Shown: positions 9,367 to 45,674 of the stretch, in pieces
Numbering within the stretch: the stretch's first letter is position 1
How the letters are laid out: each line of letters starts with the position of its first letter
Source: Branchiostoma floridae
Lineage: Eukaryota; Chordata; Leptocardii; Amphioxiformes; Branchiostomatidae
DNA length: 64,000 bases
Assembly (NCBI RefSeq): GCF_000003815.2
Contig: NC_049991.1
Location: 10,685,024-10,749,023 of the forward strand
Direction of reading: 5' to 3'
Translations under genes and position numbers: made by a program
Notes under the pieces: model-generated
Databases searched by the model: none
What the model was told of the DNA's origin: nothing
Seen by the model: the letters and a program-made list of their open reading frames with translations, nothing else

Positions 9367-9840
9367 GCAATGTTTGCAGCTAGCTCTGAACACCATCACC
9401 GCAATGTCTGCAGCTCCGAACATCATCAGCGCAATGTCTGCAGCTCCGAACATCATCAGCGCAATGTCTGCAGCTCTGAACATCATCAGCGCAATGTCTG
9501 CAGCTCTGAACATCATCAGCGCAATGTCTGCAGCTCCGAACATCATCAGCGCAATGTCTGCAGCTCCGAACATCATCAGTGCAATGTCTGCAGCTCTGAA
9601 CATCATCGGCGCAATGTCTGCAGCTTCAACCATCATCAGTGCAATGTCTGCAGCTCTAAACATCATCAGTGTAATGTCTGCAGCTCTGAACATCATCAGC
9701 GCAATGTCTGCAGCTTTGAACATCATCAGTGCAATGTCTGCAGCTCCAACCATCATCAGCGCAATGTCTGCAGCTCCGAACATCATCAGCGCAATGTCTG
9801 CAGCTCCAACCATCATCAGCGCAATGTCTGCAGCTCCGAA
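9367..9840. repeat. 30-bp minisatellite, about 16 copies
   Basis: A 30-bp unit, roughly CAATGTCTGCAGCT followed by CYGAACATCATCAGYG, repeats head-to-tail about 16 times with a few point differences (C/T in the middle, CCAACC or CTAAAC in place of CYGAAC). The first copy is divergent and carries a 4-base insertion. Each unit carries one CTGCAG (PstI) site. Because 30 is a multiple of three, several reading frames stay open through the array on both strands; one plus frame gives a decapeptide repeat MSAAPNIISA. That openness follows from the period and is not evidence for a protein. Confidence 0.95.
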
Positions 9841-11341
9841 CGCTTTTTTTTACAATATACTGTTGGGTTATTCGAGAGAACCATATAAATATTCCTATTG
9901 AGAAAATATGGAGGATATCGATTATCTCACCCTACATTCTAATAGTGGGTGATTTAAAATTCCAGAAATCAAACGGTCCAAATCGTGACATTGATTCTTA
10001 CATCCCTAGCGACTTTTCTAGCTCCAAAAATAGATGATAGAGAACAGGGGCCAGATTAGCGGATTGGTGTCAGATTACTGAAATCTCCTGCTGGATATGT
10101 TAGTTACTTCTTATGAATAGAAATGATGTCATTATGATGTCATAATAGCTCAGCGTGTCAAAGGGCACGTCCAGGTGTCATCAGGGCCCAGCGGCGCCAG
10201 ATGATACTGTCGTCTGTCTATAGGTAAAAAAACGCCCAGTACAGTCTGTGCCGTAACACACTCTCAGCTGCCACAAGATTCATTATCTGATGAACATCAG
10301 AGCAAAATTAGGCCTTCAGTGCACTCGGAATCCTCTGTGAAACGTTAGTAATCAGAAATAATGCCGGCACAATTGGATAACTCTGCACACAGATGTCGGG
10401 TAGTCTGCCGTGAGTCTCGTGTCTATTACCGAGCTCTACCGCTGAGTCATCACACTGCGATTCGTTACGCCGAGATTCTACCTATCAAACTCAATCAGTC
10501 AGGCTCATGTGGATGACTTCACCCATTCCAAAATAACCTTCCATACAGTAGAAAGTATCCCTGAGAAATGAATATTCTCTAATAAGACCTGTAGGAGATA
10601 TCAGCCGTCATCGCTATGCCTCACCGACGCCTCCTTTCTATCGCATCGTTAGGTGATTCGATTTTATGAAAACATGACTAAGCCGACTCGCTCACATGCC
10701 TGCCCCGTACGGCTGCAGCGATAATGTAGAGGAACGTGTGTATCGCCGATGATTCAAGGGCCTGTAACAATTTATGGCGTCATTAAAGTTTGTGTTTGGA
10801 ACCAGGTCGTGATTTTGCACACCACAAAATAGCCTGACGTTTAGGGGTGTGCACGTAGTTACGGAACAAAACGGCTCTCTCTGCAACTATTGTAGACACC
10901 CTCAGGCAAATAACCAACATTTAATACTCTGCTTTACACCGCTCAGGGCAGCCGAACTTGAGACATCCGGGTTGATCGTTATTGCACCCAACAAAATTGC
11001 CCCGTTGTAATTCTAACCGCCAACAGCGGCGCGGAAACGTTTCGGTAAGCATCCCTGCCCCATCTCCATACCGATGTGCAACCTTCCATACATGCTGCAT
11101 ACAGATATAAGCTTAAGGAGGTACATCCTGCTGCAATTGAACCCATCCGCTTTCCTATGAGGCGGATCGACTGGTTTATTACCATATTCCGTACACATAA
11201 GCAGACTGATGGAGGAACGTAAACAGGACTGAATGCATTATTAATGAACATGGAATGGGTTTGACAATTTTGATTGCCGCGCTTAGAATAAATCACAACA
11301 GGATGAAAAGCATTTCTACTGTCAATACTCCGCACATTTTA
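9841..11341. other. No gene recognised
   Basis: Only short overlapping open frames and no recognised repeat. Downstream exons of the minus-strand gene represented by the ORF at 11342-11716 could lie here, but I could not identify one with confidence. Confidence 0.4.
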
Positions 11342-26221: not shown

Positions 26222-29200
26222 ATGTGTGACATCATGAGGGGGAAGGAAGCCATTGGTGTGAAGTCGGTCAGGTTTGGTGGGGAGATAGTGGAGGTGTTGA
26301 AGAATTTCAAAAGGGTAAGCTTCATATTATATTATTATAAATTTTCTGTTAGTACTGTGTTACCATAGTAATTCTTTTGTTTCTTGAACTTCTGAAGCTT
26401 TGCAGTACTGCTGCATGCTGTAATGTCCGACATACAGAAGTTGGTTACCATGGGCACCATATTTACTGCAGGCTCTGCATATCTCCGTTTACGTACTTTA
26501 GTAAGCTAATGAAAAGGGAGAACTAGCATTTTAAAAATACAGAGGATGGAACAAAGCGTAATCATACTACAAGAAGTTCAAGAAGGGAGAACGAGCCTAT
26601 GGTAGTAGTGGTTTGAAGCATGAGATACAATATACTCTGCCTGACTAGTACTCTCCAAGCAGAGGTTTCAACTGCAACTGTTTTTTTATGTGTCTTAGAT
26701 GTTTTTGTCAGGTTGTCTTTAAATATAATGTCAAGTTTTCTTCTTGTCCACCAGCAAAATTGGAGATATGAAGAAGATGGAAAAAATAGAGTGCCTGACA
26801 AAAACATCTAAAACATGTAAAAAAAACAGCCAGTGGAACTTCTGCTTGGAGAGTACTAGTCAGGCATTCTTGTCAGCGCTAGCTATTAGTAGTATTACAT
26901 TTTTTATCCTAATAGAAGAATACTGTTAAATTTCATTTTTCAGGGTCAGGAAACAGAATATCACCTCCTTGTGCACCAGCTGTCAGACCCAGATATTAAG
27001 GTACTGAGACAACACCGCTGCTATGTTTTGGACTTTTGATTGCTGTTTTAAACTGTTGATACGTATCTTTGCAGTTGCATTGTTTTCTTAATTCCTCTGT
27101 CTCTAATATGGCTGTCTTCCAGTCCCAGACACTGATATGCTGGCTGAAGGAACTGAAAGGCTGTGTCGCCTTCATGACTAAAGAGTTTGAAACTTTGGTG
27201 GGGGTTATACTGGTAAGAACAAGACTCTCTTTATTTTGTTTTATTGTTTTATATACTAGGAGACTTGTTCATCTGCCTTCTCTACTGAAGATGTTTGAAT
27301 ACTTAGTTAATAAGGAAAATCTTTTGTTTGAGAATCATTTTTCTATTTTCTCAGTGCACGGTAGAGTATGCGTTTAACTATTGACACTTATGCTATACCT
27401 GACACAATCAGTTTATTCAAAGCATTTTCTTGATACACAATCCAAATGTTAATCAGACAACTGAATAGCTCTGACACATCTGACAAAAGCTATCTAGTTG
27501 TATACTATAGTTGCTCATTTTATTACCTTGATATCTAGTCATCATTGACATATTTTCATGATTTGTTATGATTTTGCTGCAGAAAATGAGCTGGGCTAAC
27601 AGTGAAGATGAAGTAGTGAAGGAGTACCTGTCCTTCCTGGGGAACCTGGTGTCGGCACAGACCTTCTATCTACGAGCCTGTCTCAAGATGCTGGTCAAGA
27701 CACTCGTACCAAGTCAGTAACTCATCTCTTAGGAGTATTGAAAAAATGAACCACAATATATGATGGTAGGAGTCTAAAATAGAAAGTTGTAGCTTGATTG
27801 CTAGAAGAGAAAAGCAATTATGTAAGCTAAGACCTTGATACCTTTATCCAATTCTATTGCATAACTGTGTCCGGAGGTGAAGATAATCTGACTGTTATAT
27901 TGCTTGTGGTCACAGGAGTGTCAAGCGACATACCACTAGAAGAGGCTAAAATTGAAGGTAAGAAGCATTATAATAGTTATTTTCCCAGTATGTTTTATCT
28001 GTTATTTCCTACAAAACATATATTAGTAATGTATACTGTAAATGCATTTAAGTTCGCGGGGATTTAATTTCACAGTAGTGGAAAAAAGGACTTTTTGCGG
28101 TGGTTTTAATTTGCGGTAGTACGGTAGAGTGCAGTCTAATACCATAATAGAAAAATGTTCTCGGCTGTTTTAAGTTCATGGTGACGTGGTCACCGCGAAC
28201 ATTAATCCACCGCGAACATTTCTGCATTTACAGTAGTACCTAAGTTGATGGCCTACAATAGCAGGTTTATTCTGCTGCATATGTGTTTCTCTTTGCAGAG
28301 TATAACAGAATATTTGAGAATGCACACAGTGCATTGCAGAGAGTCCTACACATAGTTCCCCTGTAAGTATGAAAATATGTACACTTTGTAGAGTAAGTTT
28401 CTTTTAGCTCAACCTGAAGTTGAACTTACTATAAGTACTTATAGTGCTGAAATTTCATCAAGATTGTCTGAACCTTTATCTAGGTTGCCACAATTTTACA
28501 AAAAAATATGGTATTGATTTTTACTTCTGCAGAGCTCCCAAGTTTTTAGCACCAGTCCTGGTCGACTGTTTCCCCTATATGAAGAAAGATGCCTTTGTAC
28601 AGGTAAGGTTTTCCTCTTCTGGACTTGCTCATTTTAATTCTCATTGTTTCACTTAAACCTGACATACAAGTAATATACATTTGAGGATAAAATACCGTAT
28701 ATTCTCGATTTAAGTACGCACTTTTTAATTCAAAATTCAAAAAGTGTCCCAAGTCATTGCCAAAGTCGGGGTGCGTACTTTATTTGAGGTTGGCTTCCGG
28801 ACAAAATGGGAAAAGGAGCTGAAATTCGCGTAACACACAGCACACATGGCCCGTAAAGGCACCATTCTTGCCTGAAAACAACAACTGAAAACAACAGGAA
28901 CAACTGCAGGAACCAGCTCGATTTACAATGCCACATGGCACTGGATCCCTGCCGAAAATGACCATGTCATTTTTAAGCCATGGAGACATCGATTTTGGAT
29001 GATAATAGGCGTATAAAATGGATTGTTTACGTGCGCGCGTGACGCTGGATCTATTCCAAGATGGCGCTGGGGTTATTGGGGTCATTGGGACAGACTACTA
29101 TTGTATGGGTAGAACTTTTCTGAGGGGTGATTATTTCTTCCTTAAACCGTCGAATTTATTTTGTTATTGTCGTTTGAATAAAGGTGATAAACGTTGACAA

Positions 29201-32200
29201 TAAGTTGATTGTACGTTTATCAATTTGAAAACTATAAGGCATTTGTGTTTTTTGTCAACAAACAGCATGGTTACCCATGCTACTAATGGAACATCACATG
29301 CAGCAGTCGACGTCTCCAGAAGCATTTCGGCGGCAATTTCTTCACAAAAGACGGTCCGAAAGCACAAAACATCGTTTTCTTTGAAGTGGATCAAGATCAA
29401 GACCAGTTTCGGGAAAGATGGAAAACTGTTCAGGATGTTTTCATGTTCAAATGAACTGTAAATCAGGTGTTGCAGTGCCAAATTTGAGAACTTTGTTTGA
29501 CATGCCATAGCCGATTTACAAGTTTGCAGAGACGGATTTGCCGGCGGAGAAAACATAGCGTTTTCATAAATTCAGAAGTCCTTGATTTAGGCAAAATTAC
29601 CATCAGAAAAGAGATTAAACACTATTAATTTAGAATTTGTCTGGTGCAAAAGGTGTTCAAGATCGCTGGAGAAGGGGTGCGTACTTTATTCAGGTTTTTC
29701 CATTTTACGTTTCAGTGAGGCAAATTTGTCTGAGACTTGCCCTAAATCGGGGGTGCGTACTTTAATTGGGGTGCGTACTTAAATCGAGAATATACGGTAC
29801 ATCGTATGTGTCTGTGATGGTAATTGACATTCTGACAATTAAGATCATAGATTTTTTTCCTTTACCAACAGGCTTTCAACCAGTACTCTGATCCATCTCA
29901 TGTTGAAATGACCCAGAATTTTATTGTAGGTTTTACGTGAAAAGTACACTGTAATTCATTTTTGATGAGAATACGGCCAACATGAAATATTTCTTGCTCT
30001 TGTGCCCTGACAGGAGTGTTATGTGAGGAACCTGTTACAGATGACATCATACGTGCCCAGCCTCAGACTGCCCATCTTGGAGCTCATCATCGACAGGATG
30101 ATCAGAATAGATGTGAGTGTTCTGCGTATGAATATGTATCACCAAATAAAATGGCTGGAAGGAGGCACCATGCAAAATTAAAATTCATGAAGGAACACAT
30201 TTTTCAAAGGCTATTTCCTCAAAAGGGAGATAGACGGATGCATGTCTGAAACAGAATACACTGATATGTTGTAAAACCTGTCCTTTTGTATGCAGAAATG
30301 CTAAATGTTTCTGTGTGGATAAAAGGTGTGAAGTTATCAGTAGTAATCTAAAGGGTTGATCATGGCAAAAGATGATTTCAAAATTGTGCCCAGTCTTTGT
30401 TACCTTAGTCTGATAAGTAATGAAGGTCAAAGTTACATGTTAAACAAGAATACCACATCTTTCAATGTGGATCACTGGGTAACTTACATATTTATTGCTT
30501 ACCAATCCTAGGACTGCACAATAGGTTCATGAGATCAACACTGTGTAGATGTGCATGTAGAAAAACATGAACACCTCAAAAGTTTTCTTTGCTTTGTGGC
30601 CAGCAGAGAGCATTTCCCATTCCCCTGTAACAAAAGGCTTATAAACAACAGTGATGTTAATCCACCTTGTCCTTCCAGGTCCACGCTCCTAAACATGAAC
30701 TAGAGGAGGATGAAGAAGAGGATGCAGAAGATGAAACAATGGAACACCAGGATGATACCAGTATCCTGTTTGAAATGGTAAGTAATGGCACTCTCATATA
30801 CTACATTTCCCTACTTAAACGATTAGGATGATTATCTTTTTTAGTGAACACTTAAACACCTGCAGAAATGCACTAGAATTGAAAACAAAATGGAACTTAT
30901 TGTCCTTCTCTAAAATGAACCCATAGGATGGCATGGAGTGTAGCAGTGGTAAGACATCGGAACAGGTGAAATCAGCACCCGATCTGGCCGTTACCATGGA
31001 GACTGGGGAGTCCAAACCTATGACACATGAGATGGGAGACAGGCTGGATGTGATGATGACTGTCATGCTGCAGTATATCAAAGACTCATGTCTGAACAAG
31101 GACACAGGTGGGCAGGTCAATGTAGTTACTTGGTGTGTCTGTGGTTATTTGAGTGACAGCTAGTGAGCAGGAATCACAGCAAAAAGTCAGACTTTATGTA
31201 GCTGGACTGGTAGGAAGTACAGGAAGTGCCAGTCAGAAACGGTAGAACTAGTCATTAATCAGCCACAACAGTCTGGGGCATGGAAGAGGGAATTGATTTA
31301 TGGCAATGCGTTGATTTTGCTGTTTGTCCATGTTTTCGCAATAATAATTCTCTCTATATATTTTCCATATGCTGTATGAATATGATAAGCCTAAGTTATT
31401 GCCTTGAGATTGTATGCACTAAGTCATGTTCCCCTATCTTGTTCCAGGTGAACTGCAGACCCAGCCTACCATAGAGATGTTTCGCCACCTGCTGACAGCG
31501 TTTGAGAAGTTGTTACTGCCGACCCACGCCTCCTGTCATGTACAGTTTCTGGTCTTCTACATCACCTCCTTAAGACAGGCAAGTGGTGGAAAACTTCAGT
31601 GGTTTTCTACATACATCTTAGTACATGCAAACACAAGGCATCACATTTTATCAACAAGGAAAATCTTCAAAAGTGTAAAGCACAAAGTGGAACTGTATTT
31701 TGCAACAATGTAGCTATAATTTAGACATACATTTAGTATGAGTATATACTTCTGCAGTGGTTTTATTTTTGCACTTTCTCCACTGTAAATCCGTGACATC
31801 ACTAATATATCTCCCTTGTATGACTTATGTACTACAGAATTGTTTCAACTGCAAACACCTTAAAATCTCCTTCTCCTTCTCAAAATAGAGCCACAGTGAA
31901 AGTAAAGAGATTTACTGTACTCCATCTGTTCCAGGACCTGGCCGATGCGTTCCTGAACTTCTGCTGGCGGAAGGTTCAGAGTCCCAACACACCGGTCATC
32001 CTCCGCCAGGCCGCAGCAGCATACATGGCCAGCTTCCTCGCCAGGGCCAACTTTGTACCTCTCAGGTGACCTGGGCTTTCATGTAGTCACAATTATAATG
32101 TCATGCAAGATGTACATGTAAACCGTACAAAATGTGTATGTTAGCAGTCCTACAGAATTTGGACATGAAAACCCTGTAGTTTTATACACACACCCTTGTG

Positions 32201-34931
32201 ATCATTTATAATTTTGGACCTAGACTTGTAGCCTGCATGTGATCGTGTCTTATTTGGTTCTTGACTGCGCTCCCACAGTCAGAATTATGTGTACGGCACG
32301 GAGACTAAACCAGCCACAAGCTCACGGCAGGTGGAACACACTGTCCACTTGTCAGAGTGGAAGGCTTACACCTTTCCAAGTCGTTAATGTTTGACTTGTG
32401 TCCGCTGTCCAGTGTGGTACATGTACCTATGCCATTTGAGGAGAAGCCAAAGATATCTACATTGTTCCAGGATTTCTATTCTGATGTGATGATGTTTTTT
32501 GTCCTCTCACAGCACAGTGATTGCTTGTCTAGATCTCCTACTGCCATGGATACACAGGTAAGGGAACATGTCATATCATCTGAAAATCAAGTTAAAACTC
32601 CCTAAAATCAGACAAGCACAATCAGTGTTTTCAGTACTTTTAATGAAATATCTTTATGAAAATATTTCATTGCCAGGATTCATCGTGTCTATCCTGTTTT
32701 ATTTGCAGATACATAGATGACCAAGATGGCAGCACGAGGTCTTACCCTGATGTCAATCTACATGGAACCTTCTACTCTGTGTGTCAGGTAAGATTCGCTC
32801 ATGTGCTAAGAGAGTGTCCCTTCCATTTTCTGAATATCATAGGTTCATTCAAAATTGTCTAGTCATTGTGTAATCAATGTTGTATTATTTGCCCACAGGC
32901 TGTGTTCTACATGTTTGTGTTCAGACACAAGCAATTTGTGGAGTCTAAAAAGGGTGAGTCAATTCTTGCCTTTTATAGAAACATAAATAGTTCTTCTTCA
33001 TTGAATAAACTAGGTTTTGCTTAATGTATGGTGACAGGTTGAACAGAGATTAAAGTTAAGCATTGCTGTAACAGAACGTTTTTGTCCATTGTTGTAAAAG
33101 AAATTGTGATGCATGTAGTACAAACATCCATAAAATTTCTGCATTGCTACTGTTTGTCTACTTAGGCTTGAACTACATTCGGGGACTGAACTTTGACCGA
33201 GTGATAAACTGCAGACTGAACCCCCTGAAAGTGTGTTTACCAACGATAGTCAACATGTTTGCCTCCATTACAAGGTAAAGCCAACTTGTTTGATTCAGAA
33301 ATATTGTTACAGCTGCCATGTTTTTACATAGACATAGCCATGTGGAGTTACATGTGTTTAAATCTGATATCAACTCAATGACCCACAGTCCGCTCAGTCC
33401 TGCCTGTTGTTGTTGTTGATGCATGTTGTTGTTGTTGTTACAGGATGTACCAGATAGTCATGTGTTACACCATCATGGAGAGGAACAACCGCTCAGTCCT
33501 GCCTGTTGTTGTTGTTGATGCATGTTGTTGTTATTGTTACAGGATGTACCAGATAGTCATGTGTTACACCATCATGGAGAGGAACAACCGCTCAGTCCTG
33601 CCTGTTGTTGTTGTTGATGCATGTTGTTGTTGTTGTTGTTGTTGTTGTTACAGGATGTACCAGATAGTCATGTGTTACACCATCATGGAGAGGAACAACC
33701 GCTCAGTCCTGCCTGTTGTTGTTGTTGATGTATGTTGTTGTTGTTGTTACAGGATGTACCAGATAGTCATGTGTTACACCATCATGGAGAGGAATAACCG
33801 TTCAGTCCTGCCTGTTGTTGCCAGCAGCCAGGGAGGACCCACTGATGTCACCAACCTCAACCCTCTAGATGCATTCTTCCCCTTTGACCCCTACATGTTG
33901 AGTAGGTAAGTACAGCAGAAACCACCACCACATCCACGTCTTCTGTACTTAAGTTCTGACTGCCTAACTCCACTGTTATACTATCAAGTTTTAGTCAGAA
34001 TTTTGAGAGCTGTATCCTTTGTGTTGCTTTTGGAATTTGTTGGAAGAAAAAACTGCTATATCAGGCTGCAGTTAAATCACATTTGCTTAACTACAGATTG
34101 GAAAAAAAGTATTTGAACAAGTCAAAGTTGTTACTAGTATGATAGATTAGCTAGCCTGTGATCGTGTCTTATTTGGTTCTTGACTGCCCTCCCACAGTCA
34201 GAATTATGTGTACGGCACGGAGACTAAACCAGCCACAAGCTCACAACAGGTGGAACACACTGTCCACTTGTCAGAGTGGAAGGCTTACACCTTTCCAACC
34301 TTCCCCACTGGACAAGCCGTTCCTGTTGAGTTGTGTTCAGTGTCTAATGTCCTGTTGTTGTGTGCAGGTCCAAGAGGTTCATCCAGCCCCTGTACCAGGA
34401 GTGGGAGGGCAGCGACCCTGATCAAGATGAGGCCGCCAATTCTGAGGTGAGACATAACTTCTTGATTTTAAAAGTCCATCAAACAAAGTGTATTTTTGTA
34501 CATCATTATAAATTGGGTGCAGTGAACCTACTTCTTACTCCAAGACCAAAGGGGAGTATTGGAATTTTTCCATTGTTCTGACCAGATAAAGAATGTTTCA
34601 CTACCCCCGCTGTATGACATGTGATGCAGGAAATGTTTTCATGTAATGGCCACAAATTACACAATACAGTAGGAACAACAATTTGTCAGAGAATCTGTAG
34701 ACGTGTCAGTGTGGCTGTGATAGGCACCTGTATAGTCTTAAGGTGATGAGGGGAGAGAATAATGAAATGGAACGTTTGTTGATGTGTTTGTAGGAGGATG
34801 AAGATGACTTCCTCCAGGGTGCCATGTCACCAGGGACCCCCCACATGGGCACCACACCCGGATCTATCCCAGAACTCCCTGGCTTCAGGAAAAGGAGACG
34901 CACAGACAGCAGCTGTCTATCACCACCCTGA
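26222..34931 (+). CDS. RRN3: RNA polymerase I-specific initiation factor RRN3 (TIF-IA)
   Basis: Nineteen exons join in phase to about 614 residues (human about 650): 26222-26314, 26944-27000, 27123-27212, 27583-27712, 27916-27957, 28299-28362, 28533-28602, 30014-30112, 30679-30777, 30927-31107, 31448-31578, 31935-32065, 32513-32557, 32709-32787, 32899-32953, 33166-33274, 33753-33905, 34368-34446, 34794-34931. Family blocks include KSVRFGGEIVEVL, EYLSFLGNLVSAQTF, LLLPTHASCHVQF, TVIACLDLLLPWIHRY and YTIMERNNRSVLPV. RRN3 is a HEAT-repeat factor that links Pol I to the promoter complex on rDNA. The C-terminus has SP/TP sites and a basic RKRRR patch; the human tail is phosphorylated by growth-signalling kinases. 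Oddities are a GC donor at 31579, four tandem in-frame acceptors for exon 17 (33444, 33543, 33654, 33753), and a possible extra 54-bp exon at 29872-29925. The N-terminus may begin in an upstream exon near 24.0 kb. Confidence 0.9.
26638..26866. repeat. Long hairpin element in RRN3 intron 1
   Basis: Arms of about 75 bp (26638-26712 and 26794-26866) are reverse complements at roughly 85-90% identity. They start TGCCTGACTAGTACTCTCCA and end with GATGTTTTTGTCAGG before an ~80-bp loop. A transcript in either direction could fold into a long duplex. It is most simply a foldback MITE. Confidence 0.8.
28034..28235. mobile_element. CCGCGAA-rich MITE in RRN3 intron 5 (copy 2)
   Basis: This has the same termini (TACTGTAAATGCA / TGCATTTACAGTA) and the same internal order as the copy at 16458-16669, but reversed: TTCGCGGGGATTTAATTT comes first and CACCGCGAACATTAATCC last. 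The two copies differ at many positions, so neither insertion is very recent. Confidence 0.85.
28695..29797. mobile_element. 1.1-kb inverted-repeat DNA transposon, TA-flanked
   Basis: Perfect terminal inverted repeats of 27 bases begin CCGTATATTCTCGATT and continue to GTACGCAC. They are flanked by TA on both sides (28693-28694 and 29798-29799), so it is probably a Tc1/mariner/pogo-type element. The sub-terminal GTGCGTACTTTA motif recurs several times near both ends. Interior open frames (79 and 131 codons) show no clear transposase, so I call it non-autonomous or decayed. It fills most of RRN3 intron 7. Confidence 0.8.
32229..32379. repeat. Dispersed duplication in RRN3 intron 12 (copy 1)
   Basis: About 150 bp, from TAGCCTGCATGTGATCGTG to ACACCTTTCCAA, repeated nearly exactly at 34152-34298 with only a few differences. 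Both copies carry a good acceptor (CTCCCACAG) followed by about 34 open codons (SQNYVYGTETKPATS...). It lies between the exon ending at 32065 and the 45-bp exon at 32513. Confidence 0.85.
33391..33823 (+). repeat. Tandem duplication of RRN3 exon 17 5' half with its splice acceptor
   Basis: A unit of about 99 bp holds GTTGTT-rich intron end, TTACAG acceptor and the coding start MYQIVMCYTIMERNNRSVLPV. It is present four times, with acceptors at 33444, 33543, 33654 and 33753; a partial unit precedes them at 33391-33443. Unit lengths are 99, 111 and 99 bases, all multiples of three, and the frame is open from 33445 to 33905. Only the last copy runs on into the conserved rest of the exon. The third unit is longer because its TTG microsatellite has expanded by 12 bases. 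Confidence 0.95.
34152..34298. repeat. Dispersed duplication in RRN3 intron 17 (copy 2)
   Basis: Second copy of the 150-bp segment at 32229-32379, same orientation, 1.9 kb away in another intron of the same gene. It again includes the CCCACAG acceptor and the SQNYVYGTETKP frame, and lies directly upstream of the exon starting at 34368. Confidence 0.85.
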
Positions 34932-44300: not shown

Positions 44301-45674
44301 TAATAATATAATCTTTCTGAGGCTGTAACATTTACATCTGAATTTATATACAGAGATCTGCTGACCTGTGTGCCTGAGAACAGCTATGTGACAAGTCGTG
44401 GCATCTTCTGAACCTAAGAACTGTACAACATCTGAAATGAGAGGAAGACAATTGACAATAGCTGACAGTCCAACATTCATCTTACACATCTGTATCTCTT
44501 CTTGGAAAATGACAAGAAAATCAAACATCAACATAAGATGAACCTCCTGGAAAAGTTGTCTGTCTTTTTTGACAGCCTGACATTGACCTTGCCCGCCCGA
44601 CATTGACCCTGATAGCCCGACATCAACCTTGCAGGCCCGACATCGACCCTGCATGCTCGAAATCGTCCCTGACCTTCTGACATCGACACTGACTGCCTGA
44701 CATCAACCCTGCAGGCCCAACATTGACCCTGACCGCCCGACATCAACCCTGTATGCCAACATCAATCCCGACCGCCCGACATTGACCCTGCAGGCCCAAC
44801 ATCGACCCTGACCGCCCGACATTGACCCTGACAGCCCGACATTGACCCTGACTGCCCGACATCGACCCTGACCACCCGACATTGCCCGACTTTCCCCCTA
44901 AGTACAGAAGATGAACTGCCTAAAGTGCGCAAATGCTGAAAAATTGGAAAAAGCAGCGAAGGATGAGCATACGTGAAGGAATCAAAGACAGAGGGAAAGC
45001 ACGAGACCAGAAGCCGACAAACTGAAGCAGATTAAGAGACAACAACATTAAAGATGTGTCAGACAATCACACTGCAATATGCAGCTGCAATAAACATTGT
45101 AAAGGTTTTGCTTGGGCAATTTTTGAAGCTAACATTTGTGCAGACACATACCGTCAGATGGCCCTGTAGCTGCATATTCCCTCTGGTTGACATACAGGAC
45201 ACCGTCTGTACCCAGGGTCCTCACCGCCTGGCTGCACAGGTTTGCTGCTGACTCCTGAAACAGTGGGTACCAGCTTCCAGTTTGCATTGAGCCATCAAAG
45301 GGCAGACTGATAATATTGCATGATTTACTTTTTCAACAGACCCAATTATGTCTATTCTACTACATTGGGCCGTATGGTAGATTTTATGGATAAAATCAGC
45401 ACGCTCATGAATTTTTACCTGATTGAATTTTTTTTTTTTTTATAATACAATAGGGCTAGCCTAATGTTATAGTATTGTGTGTGAGTAGCGTTGAGAAATG
45501 GAACAACTCTCAGGATCAGGAAGTGAAACTGGAAGAAACATGATGAACATTCTCTCCAGCTTTGCGCAAGATAAAACAAGACATTTTGCACACCTTGAAG
45601 TGTGGGAACCTGGTCAGCAAGCTTTTCACGCTGTCAACTTGTCCTACAGGAGTGTCATCCACAACAAGCGGCAT
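41369..45674 (-). CDS. NTAN1: Protein N-terminal asparagine amidohydrolase
   Basis: Ten minus-strand exons: 45594-45674, 45152-45254, 44366-44431, 43920-44028, 43543-43616, 43044-43097, 42718-42771, 42322-42422, 41780-41893, 41369-41542. Joined in phase they give 309 residues, essentially the human length (310). NTAN1 deamidates N-terminal Asn (exposed after Met removal) to Asp, feeding the Arg/N-degron pathway in cytosol and nucleus. The start MPLVVDD keeps the family's MPL. The catalytic cysteine follows from SEDATTCHIAVLRHTG (Cys75 here). RLELHLVGGFCDDR, WPVIYGV and LSTSPLVEPPDFVE are further family blocks. One acceptor is the weaker CAATATAG (exon 7). The intron between exons 2 and 3 carries a 20-bp minisatellite. 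The gene is head-to-head with RPSA. Confidence 0.93.
43354..43437. repeat. 42-bp direct duplication in an NTAN1 intron
   Basis: Two adjacent copies of a unit starting CATTGTTTGTTGTAAT and ending in a TGGTCTTAG-like stretch, with about 80% identity. Non-coding. Confidence 0.7.
44574..44890. repeat. 20-bp minisatellite, about 16 copies, in an NTAN1 intron
   Basis: The unit is CATTGACCCTGACCGCCCGA with variants (CATCAACCCTGCAGGCCCGA and others), nearly all exactly 20 bases; one unit is 19. Because 20 is not a multiple of three, the minus frames through it (GQGQCRACKVDVG...) are chance. Confidence 0.95.

Follow-up and report, generated by a model that had tools for sequence, protein, structure and literature searches.

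A tandem array over a 3' splice site of Branchiostoma floridae RRN3 is probably a young mirage

The window analyzed here, a stretch of 64,000 nucleotides of Branchiostoma floridae DNA, contains a gene for RRN3, which recruits RNA polymerase I to its promoter. In this gene, the 3' splice site and the first 68 bases of one exon form the repeated piece of a four-copy tandem array. We consider this array to be probably a young amphioxus mirage, expanded by way of its TTG tracts, in which the last acceptor (33753) is mainly used. Mirages are minisatellite-like tandem duplications of intron/exon boundaries, described in B. floridae globin genes and earlier reported in Adh3 (PMC3087553); in the accounts drawn on here, many published mirages, not all, have splice signals in their units. 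The RRN3 instance appears to be undescribed within the literature searched under "Branchiostoma" and "RRN3", where no paper contained both terms, and a search on acceptor duplications found none.

The RRN3 gene lies on the + strand of the window, on contig 13 of a searched genome of 513,431,437 bases. The six matches to Pfam RRN3 (PF05327) listed genome-wide, from a search that scored the best candidates, all fall in this gene, giving a single RRN3 locus among the matches listed for this one assembly. The PF05327 match lies above the curated cut-off, and the closest solved structure is also RRN3: a sequence pieced together by eye out of three exons aligns with the RRN3 chain 7oba_O, which we take to be the human protein, with an E value of 3.8e-25. 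One Pfam match (33177-33308) overruns the end of the exon upstream of the array (33274) and crosses two stops, and another (33757-33906) covers the exon downstream. The features are as follows, in window coordinates:

33166..33274, + strand: RRN3 exon 5' of the array, ending ATT ACA AG, with donor GTAAAG from 33275
33390..33820, + strand: tandem array, 99-base unit × 4.2, covering the 3' splice site and the RRN3 exon start
33390..33488, + strand: unit 1, comprising a fragment of exon tail, a TTG tract, TTGAT whose A is at 33419, a TTACAG that ends at 33443, and an exon head
33489..33587, + strand: unit 2, acceptor ending at 33542; an A at 33533 breaks the TTG tract, and the acceptor score is slightly lower
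33588..33698, + strand: unit 3, 111 bases, TTG longer by 12 bases; acceptor ending at 33653
33699..33820, + strand: unit 4 plus partial copy, acceptor ending at 33752; set off from the other units by three C/T differences; joins the unique exon sequence
33753..33905, + strand: RRN3 exon colinear with the 7oba chain, 153 bases, with donor GTAAGT from 33906

Tandem Repeats Finder reports the array at 33390-33820 with a period of 99, 4.2 copies, 91% matches, 6% indels and a score of 726; it is not due to chance. Each unit runs from an exon tail (CCGCTCAGTCCTGCC) through a TTG tract, TTGAT, a second TTG tract and TTACAG to an exon head (GATGTACC...GAACAA). TTACAG is present in 4/4 copies, so the repeat units carry splice signals, as many mirages do. 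The TTGAT element is a branch-point candidate that fits yUnAy, the branch-point consensus, with its A at -25 from the acceptor (-37 in unit 3). Only the last copy extends into the unique remainder of the exon, and it stands apart from the others at three T-for-C sites: position 33731 in the intron part, and the synonymous exon positions 33795 (AAT for AAC) and 33801 (CGT for CGC). Copies 1-3 do not differ in their exon parts. The inner units thus appear homogenized and the edge unit excluded, a published trait of mirages. The array looks young, since the last unit differs from the rest at three positions over about 120 bases.

The four possible exon starts (33444, 33543, 33654 and 33753) are spaced 99, 111 and 99 bases apart. 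They give introns of 169, 268, 379 and 478 bases (from the coordinates) and exons of 462, 363, 252 and 153 bases, all ending at 33905 before GTAAGT. A frame of 175 amino acids (33382-33909) is open across every copy, and splicing to the four acceptors in order would add 103, 70, 33 or 0 residues. The preliminary description had claimed a four-copy unit of acceptor and exon start, these spacings with a stop-free read-through, and 0, 33, 70 or 103 extra residues in frame; the Tandem Repeats Finder array and its four TTACAG motifs bear out the first, and the coordinates, the arithmetic, the open frame and the exon starts agree with the other two. To compare acceptor strength, we used a matrix built from 14 other RRN3 acceptors picked by eye. 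The four acceptors score, in order, 16.2, 14.4, 16.2 and 16.2; the best of the remaining AGs, among 26 in the comparison, scores 5.0. The 14 matrix sites, each left out in turn, range from -1.7 to 12.0. Local strength gives no reason to prefer acceptor 33753. A further candidate, the CACAG ending at 33388, has a stop in its frame at 33417-33419 and scored -2.0 in a version of the matrix with one site shifted by one base; it is not favored as an acceptor.

The 7oba RRN3 chain aligns over the junction without a gap for 73 residues (FAAITN/KYQLVF against FASITR/MYQIVM), so the usual protein would come from acceptor 33753 only. Two other structures, 5g5l_O (E 0.007) and 3tj1_A (E 0.0077), match downstream of the junction only and are uninformative on this site. 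Under exon definition, placement with respect to the downstream donor could select the last acceptor. Against this reading, splicing to the first acceptor leaves the shortest intron, of 169 bases compared with 478 for the last, and some splicing rules would favor it. Alternatively, at least two of the four acceptors could be used appreciably, yielding RRN3 isoforms longer by 33, 70 or 103 residues that perhaps vary between individuals as copy number varies. Four similar scores and one open frame, such that any acceptor joins the upstream exon without a frameshift, agree with this proposal, but the 7oba chain has no insertion at the site, and we regard functional alternative acceptors as unlikely.

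Published relatives bear on the same choice. Regular splicing of mirages is suggested by Adh3 data and globin RT-PCR in the parts of PMC3087553 drawn on here, whose authors allow for cryptic sites giving alternative transcripts, and Adh and TnC mirages are described in the cited part of PMC3902484 as not generating aberrant mRNAs; such reports of normal splicing count against functional alternative acceptors. On the other side, the introns of amphioxus VCBP3 are described as containing exon copies, whole or partial, that have splice sites, and VCBP haplotypes in human 293T cells gave diverse, partly frameshifted products, according to the relevant passages of PMC2632668. These transcripts indicate that duplicated splice signals are not always silent. 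A stronger form of the proposal, in which four near-equal acceptors give an in-frame ladder of RRN3 isoforms and an unstable minisatellite makes individuals, or even cells, differ in the isoforms possible, is in our estimate quite doubtful. The preliminary description had held that either the last acceptor is strongly chosen or isoform diversity is at work; the first half is the better supported, by 7oba and by the published mirages, and the second is the weaker.

The open frame itself is a poor guide to function. RRN3 units vary in length only by the 12 TTG bases of unit 3; since lengths differ just by TTG triplets, a multiple of three in any one unit implies the same for the rest. The earlier remark that the spacings are "all multiples of three" is therefore true but supplies no independent evidence, a single 1-in-3 event fixing the rest. 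In the 40 bases preceding each acceptor, two of the three frames are stop-free, and among 42-base stretches of RRN3 introns (taken by eye) 2177 of 4461 are open in a given frame. From the 1-in-3 unit length and these figures for intron openness, we infer that the RRN3 open frame is roughly a one-in-five coincidence and no mark of coding function.

We compared the RRN3 array with arrays crossing exon ends elsewhere in the same genome. A Pfam globin search gave nine loci, one of which (L017) has an acceptor array of 158-base units × 4.2 at an exon; like the RRN3 array, it begins inside exon-derived sequence. A glycine decarboxylase gene (GDC-P matches), reached via similarity to the RRN3 TTG tracts, has five arrays at exon ends, with one exon flanked on both sides. 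A CCT chaperonin gene, presumably CCT2, has a further array:

Glycine decarboxylase gene, loci L043-L050, G000:C15 ~21,316,300-21,326,000: three donor-side and two acceptor-side arrays
L046: glycine decarboxylase, donor-side array, 99-117 bases
L043: glycine decarboxylase, acceptor-side array, 53 bases, the unit including only about 12 bases of exon
L043: glycine decarboxylase, donor-side array, 45 bases
L044: glycine decarboxylase, acceptor-side array, 68 bases
L045: glycine decarboxylase, donor-side array, 42 bases
L056:2251-3186: CCT chaperonin gene, 67-base unit × 14 over a 5' splice site, reaching the locus end
L004:1413-1682: 112-base unit × 2.4 with TTACAG and TTG tracts, a possible boundary array, outside the count of eight because no gene was assigned to it

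Judged by inspection, it is the copy closest to the exon body that carries on the conserved protein in all eight exon-end arrays, the outcome expected under exon definition. Translation past the first donor of L046 and L056 runs into a stop immediately or inside 12 codons. Units are multiples of three in 4/8 arrays (one-sided binomial P 0.26 against 1 in 3), in a sample that contains the RRN3 index case, takes five of its eight arrays from one gene found via TTG similarity to RRN3, and assigns each array a single period (several occur in the first glycine decarboxylase array: 99, 102, 111 and 117, and also 152 and 251). Adding three published arrays (60, 108 and 157 bases) gives 6/11 (P 0.12, one-sided binomial). 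We rejected selection for in-frame mirage units, these P values being no evidence for it. The other four of the eight arrays have units of 53, 67, 68 and 158 bases; such arrays thus persist without in-frame escape, and an open frame is not required. Isoform coding is not the reason that arrays of this kind exist, and the idea of RRN3 isoforms is weakened by analogy.

Counting loci with an array (period of at least 20, score of at least 100) within 40 bases of a Pfam match gave 0/30 for TCP1 (loci from 30 of 60 matches), 0/25 for ADH zinc (including L024, at just 943 bases too short for the criterion to be valid), 1/9 for globin, 7/8 for GDC-P (with a single array common to L045 and L048-L050) and 1/6 for RRN3. 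The globin and ADH families were picked for their published mirages, and the sample is no guide to mirage frequency. The L056 CCT array falls outside this count because its exon is no Pfam match, and Pkinase (129 matches) and myosin (142 matches) were left out.

Overall, the published boundary minisatellites resemble the RRN3 array in several respects. As presented in the globin sections of PMC3087553, the BflGb6 unit joins the 3' end of an intron to the 5' part of an exon in 150-160 bases, with six and three units in two haplotypes, homogenized inner units and an excluded end unit. BflGb6, BflGb9 and RRN3 are, on this description, all boundary minisatellites, and BflGb6 shares with RRN3 its polarity, homogenized inner units and excluded end unit; units are 150-160 bases in BflGb6 and 157 in BflGb9, whereas those of RRN3 are 99 and 111 bases with an in-frame read-through. 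The 158-base L017 array resembles the BflGb6 unit as published, a likeness that points to B. floridae as the species. From what is reported of them, the Adh3 and TnC mirages are of the same class as RRN3, with Adh3 units of 10-72 bases compared with 99 and 111. The Adh3 mirage is reported as somatically unstable in the excerpts of PMC3087553 and PMC3902484 used here.

A further relative is B. floridae PGBD5, for which the pertinent section of PMC3902484 describes 60- and 108-base repeats, confirmed by resequencing, with a copy number that varies between assemblies. The repeats are said there to be without transcript coverage, and omitting them leaves a 13-residue deletion that the authors could not explain, a point that counts against our preferred reading. 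As in RRN3, these repeats overlap exon ends, have a unit that is a multiple of three and, in the gene model, add residues to a conserved protein; unlike in RRN3, they are described as imperfect and lie beside 5' splice sites.

PGBD5 also bears on whether the RRN3 copies are real. An assembler could have expanded fewer true copies, given that TTG-rich repeats are difficult to assemble, and the BflGb6 mirage was misassembled in a draft genome according to the part of PMC3087553 cited. However, the RRN3 copies are not identical to each other, similar arrays recur in the same genome, and the PGBD5 repeats were re-confirmed by Sanger and Illumina data in the account of PMC3902484. Assembly error is, in our judgment, highly improbable.

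For a mirage generated from TTG tracts, the layout of the RRN3 exon suggests a route. The exon contains GTTGTTG near base 62, and TTG tracts precede the acceptor. Unequal exchange or replication slippage between these sequences could create and expand the array, and misaligned pairing of the exon GTTGTTG with the TTG tracts would duplicate about the unit observed. Inner units would then be homogenized, with the exon-side end escaping. The exon would be defined from the consensus-like donor at 33906 and the mRNA joined mainly to 33753, with upstream unit copies behaving as plain intron; if an upstream acceptor were used now and then, the protein would gain 33, 70 or 103 residues in frame. Splicing choice and length polymorphism at RRN3 are points that we infer from the published relatives. 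Against this route, the left edge of the array consists of 23 bases of exon tail (33390-33412) abutting unique intron, rather than of intron-derived sequence, which a single simple tandem duplication leaves unexplained; the preliminary description is silent on this edge. The fragment would be accounted for if a longer array had been trimmed on its left side or if a templated insertion had started the array.

Internal tandem duplications have reportedly created introns, in work attributed to Gao and Lynch (2009) and Zhuo (2007). Those duplications, like the RRN3 array, place extra splice signals in a gene, but no new intron is evident in RRN3.

Few mirages have been published, and RRN3 extends their list by a conserved gene. 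Where near-identical acceptors or donors adjoin a single real exon, they act as a natural experiment in which the spliceosome must select one of several equal sites. RRN3 is well suited to measuring acceptor choice because its copies are in frame, so that aberrantly spliced mRNA would escape loss through a frameshift.

The window contains other repeats. Visual inspection shows, at 28690-29800 in an RRN3 intron, an element of about 1.1 kb with inverted ends (ACCGTATATTCTCGATTTAAGTACGCAC) that resembles a non-autonomous DNA transposon, and, in two different RRN3 introns (32220-32380 and 34150-34300), a near-identical repeat of about 150 bases. Farther from the array, a 20-base unit is repeated 15.7 times with 73% matches at 44570-44882, and a 30-base unit is repeated 15.3 times at 9382-9841, with several open frames.
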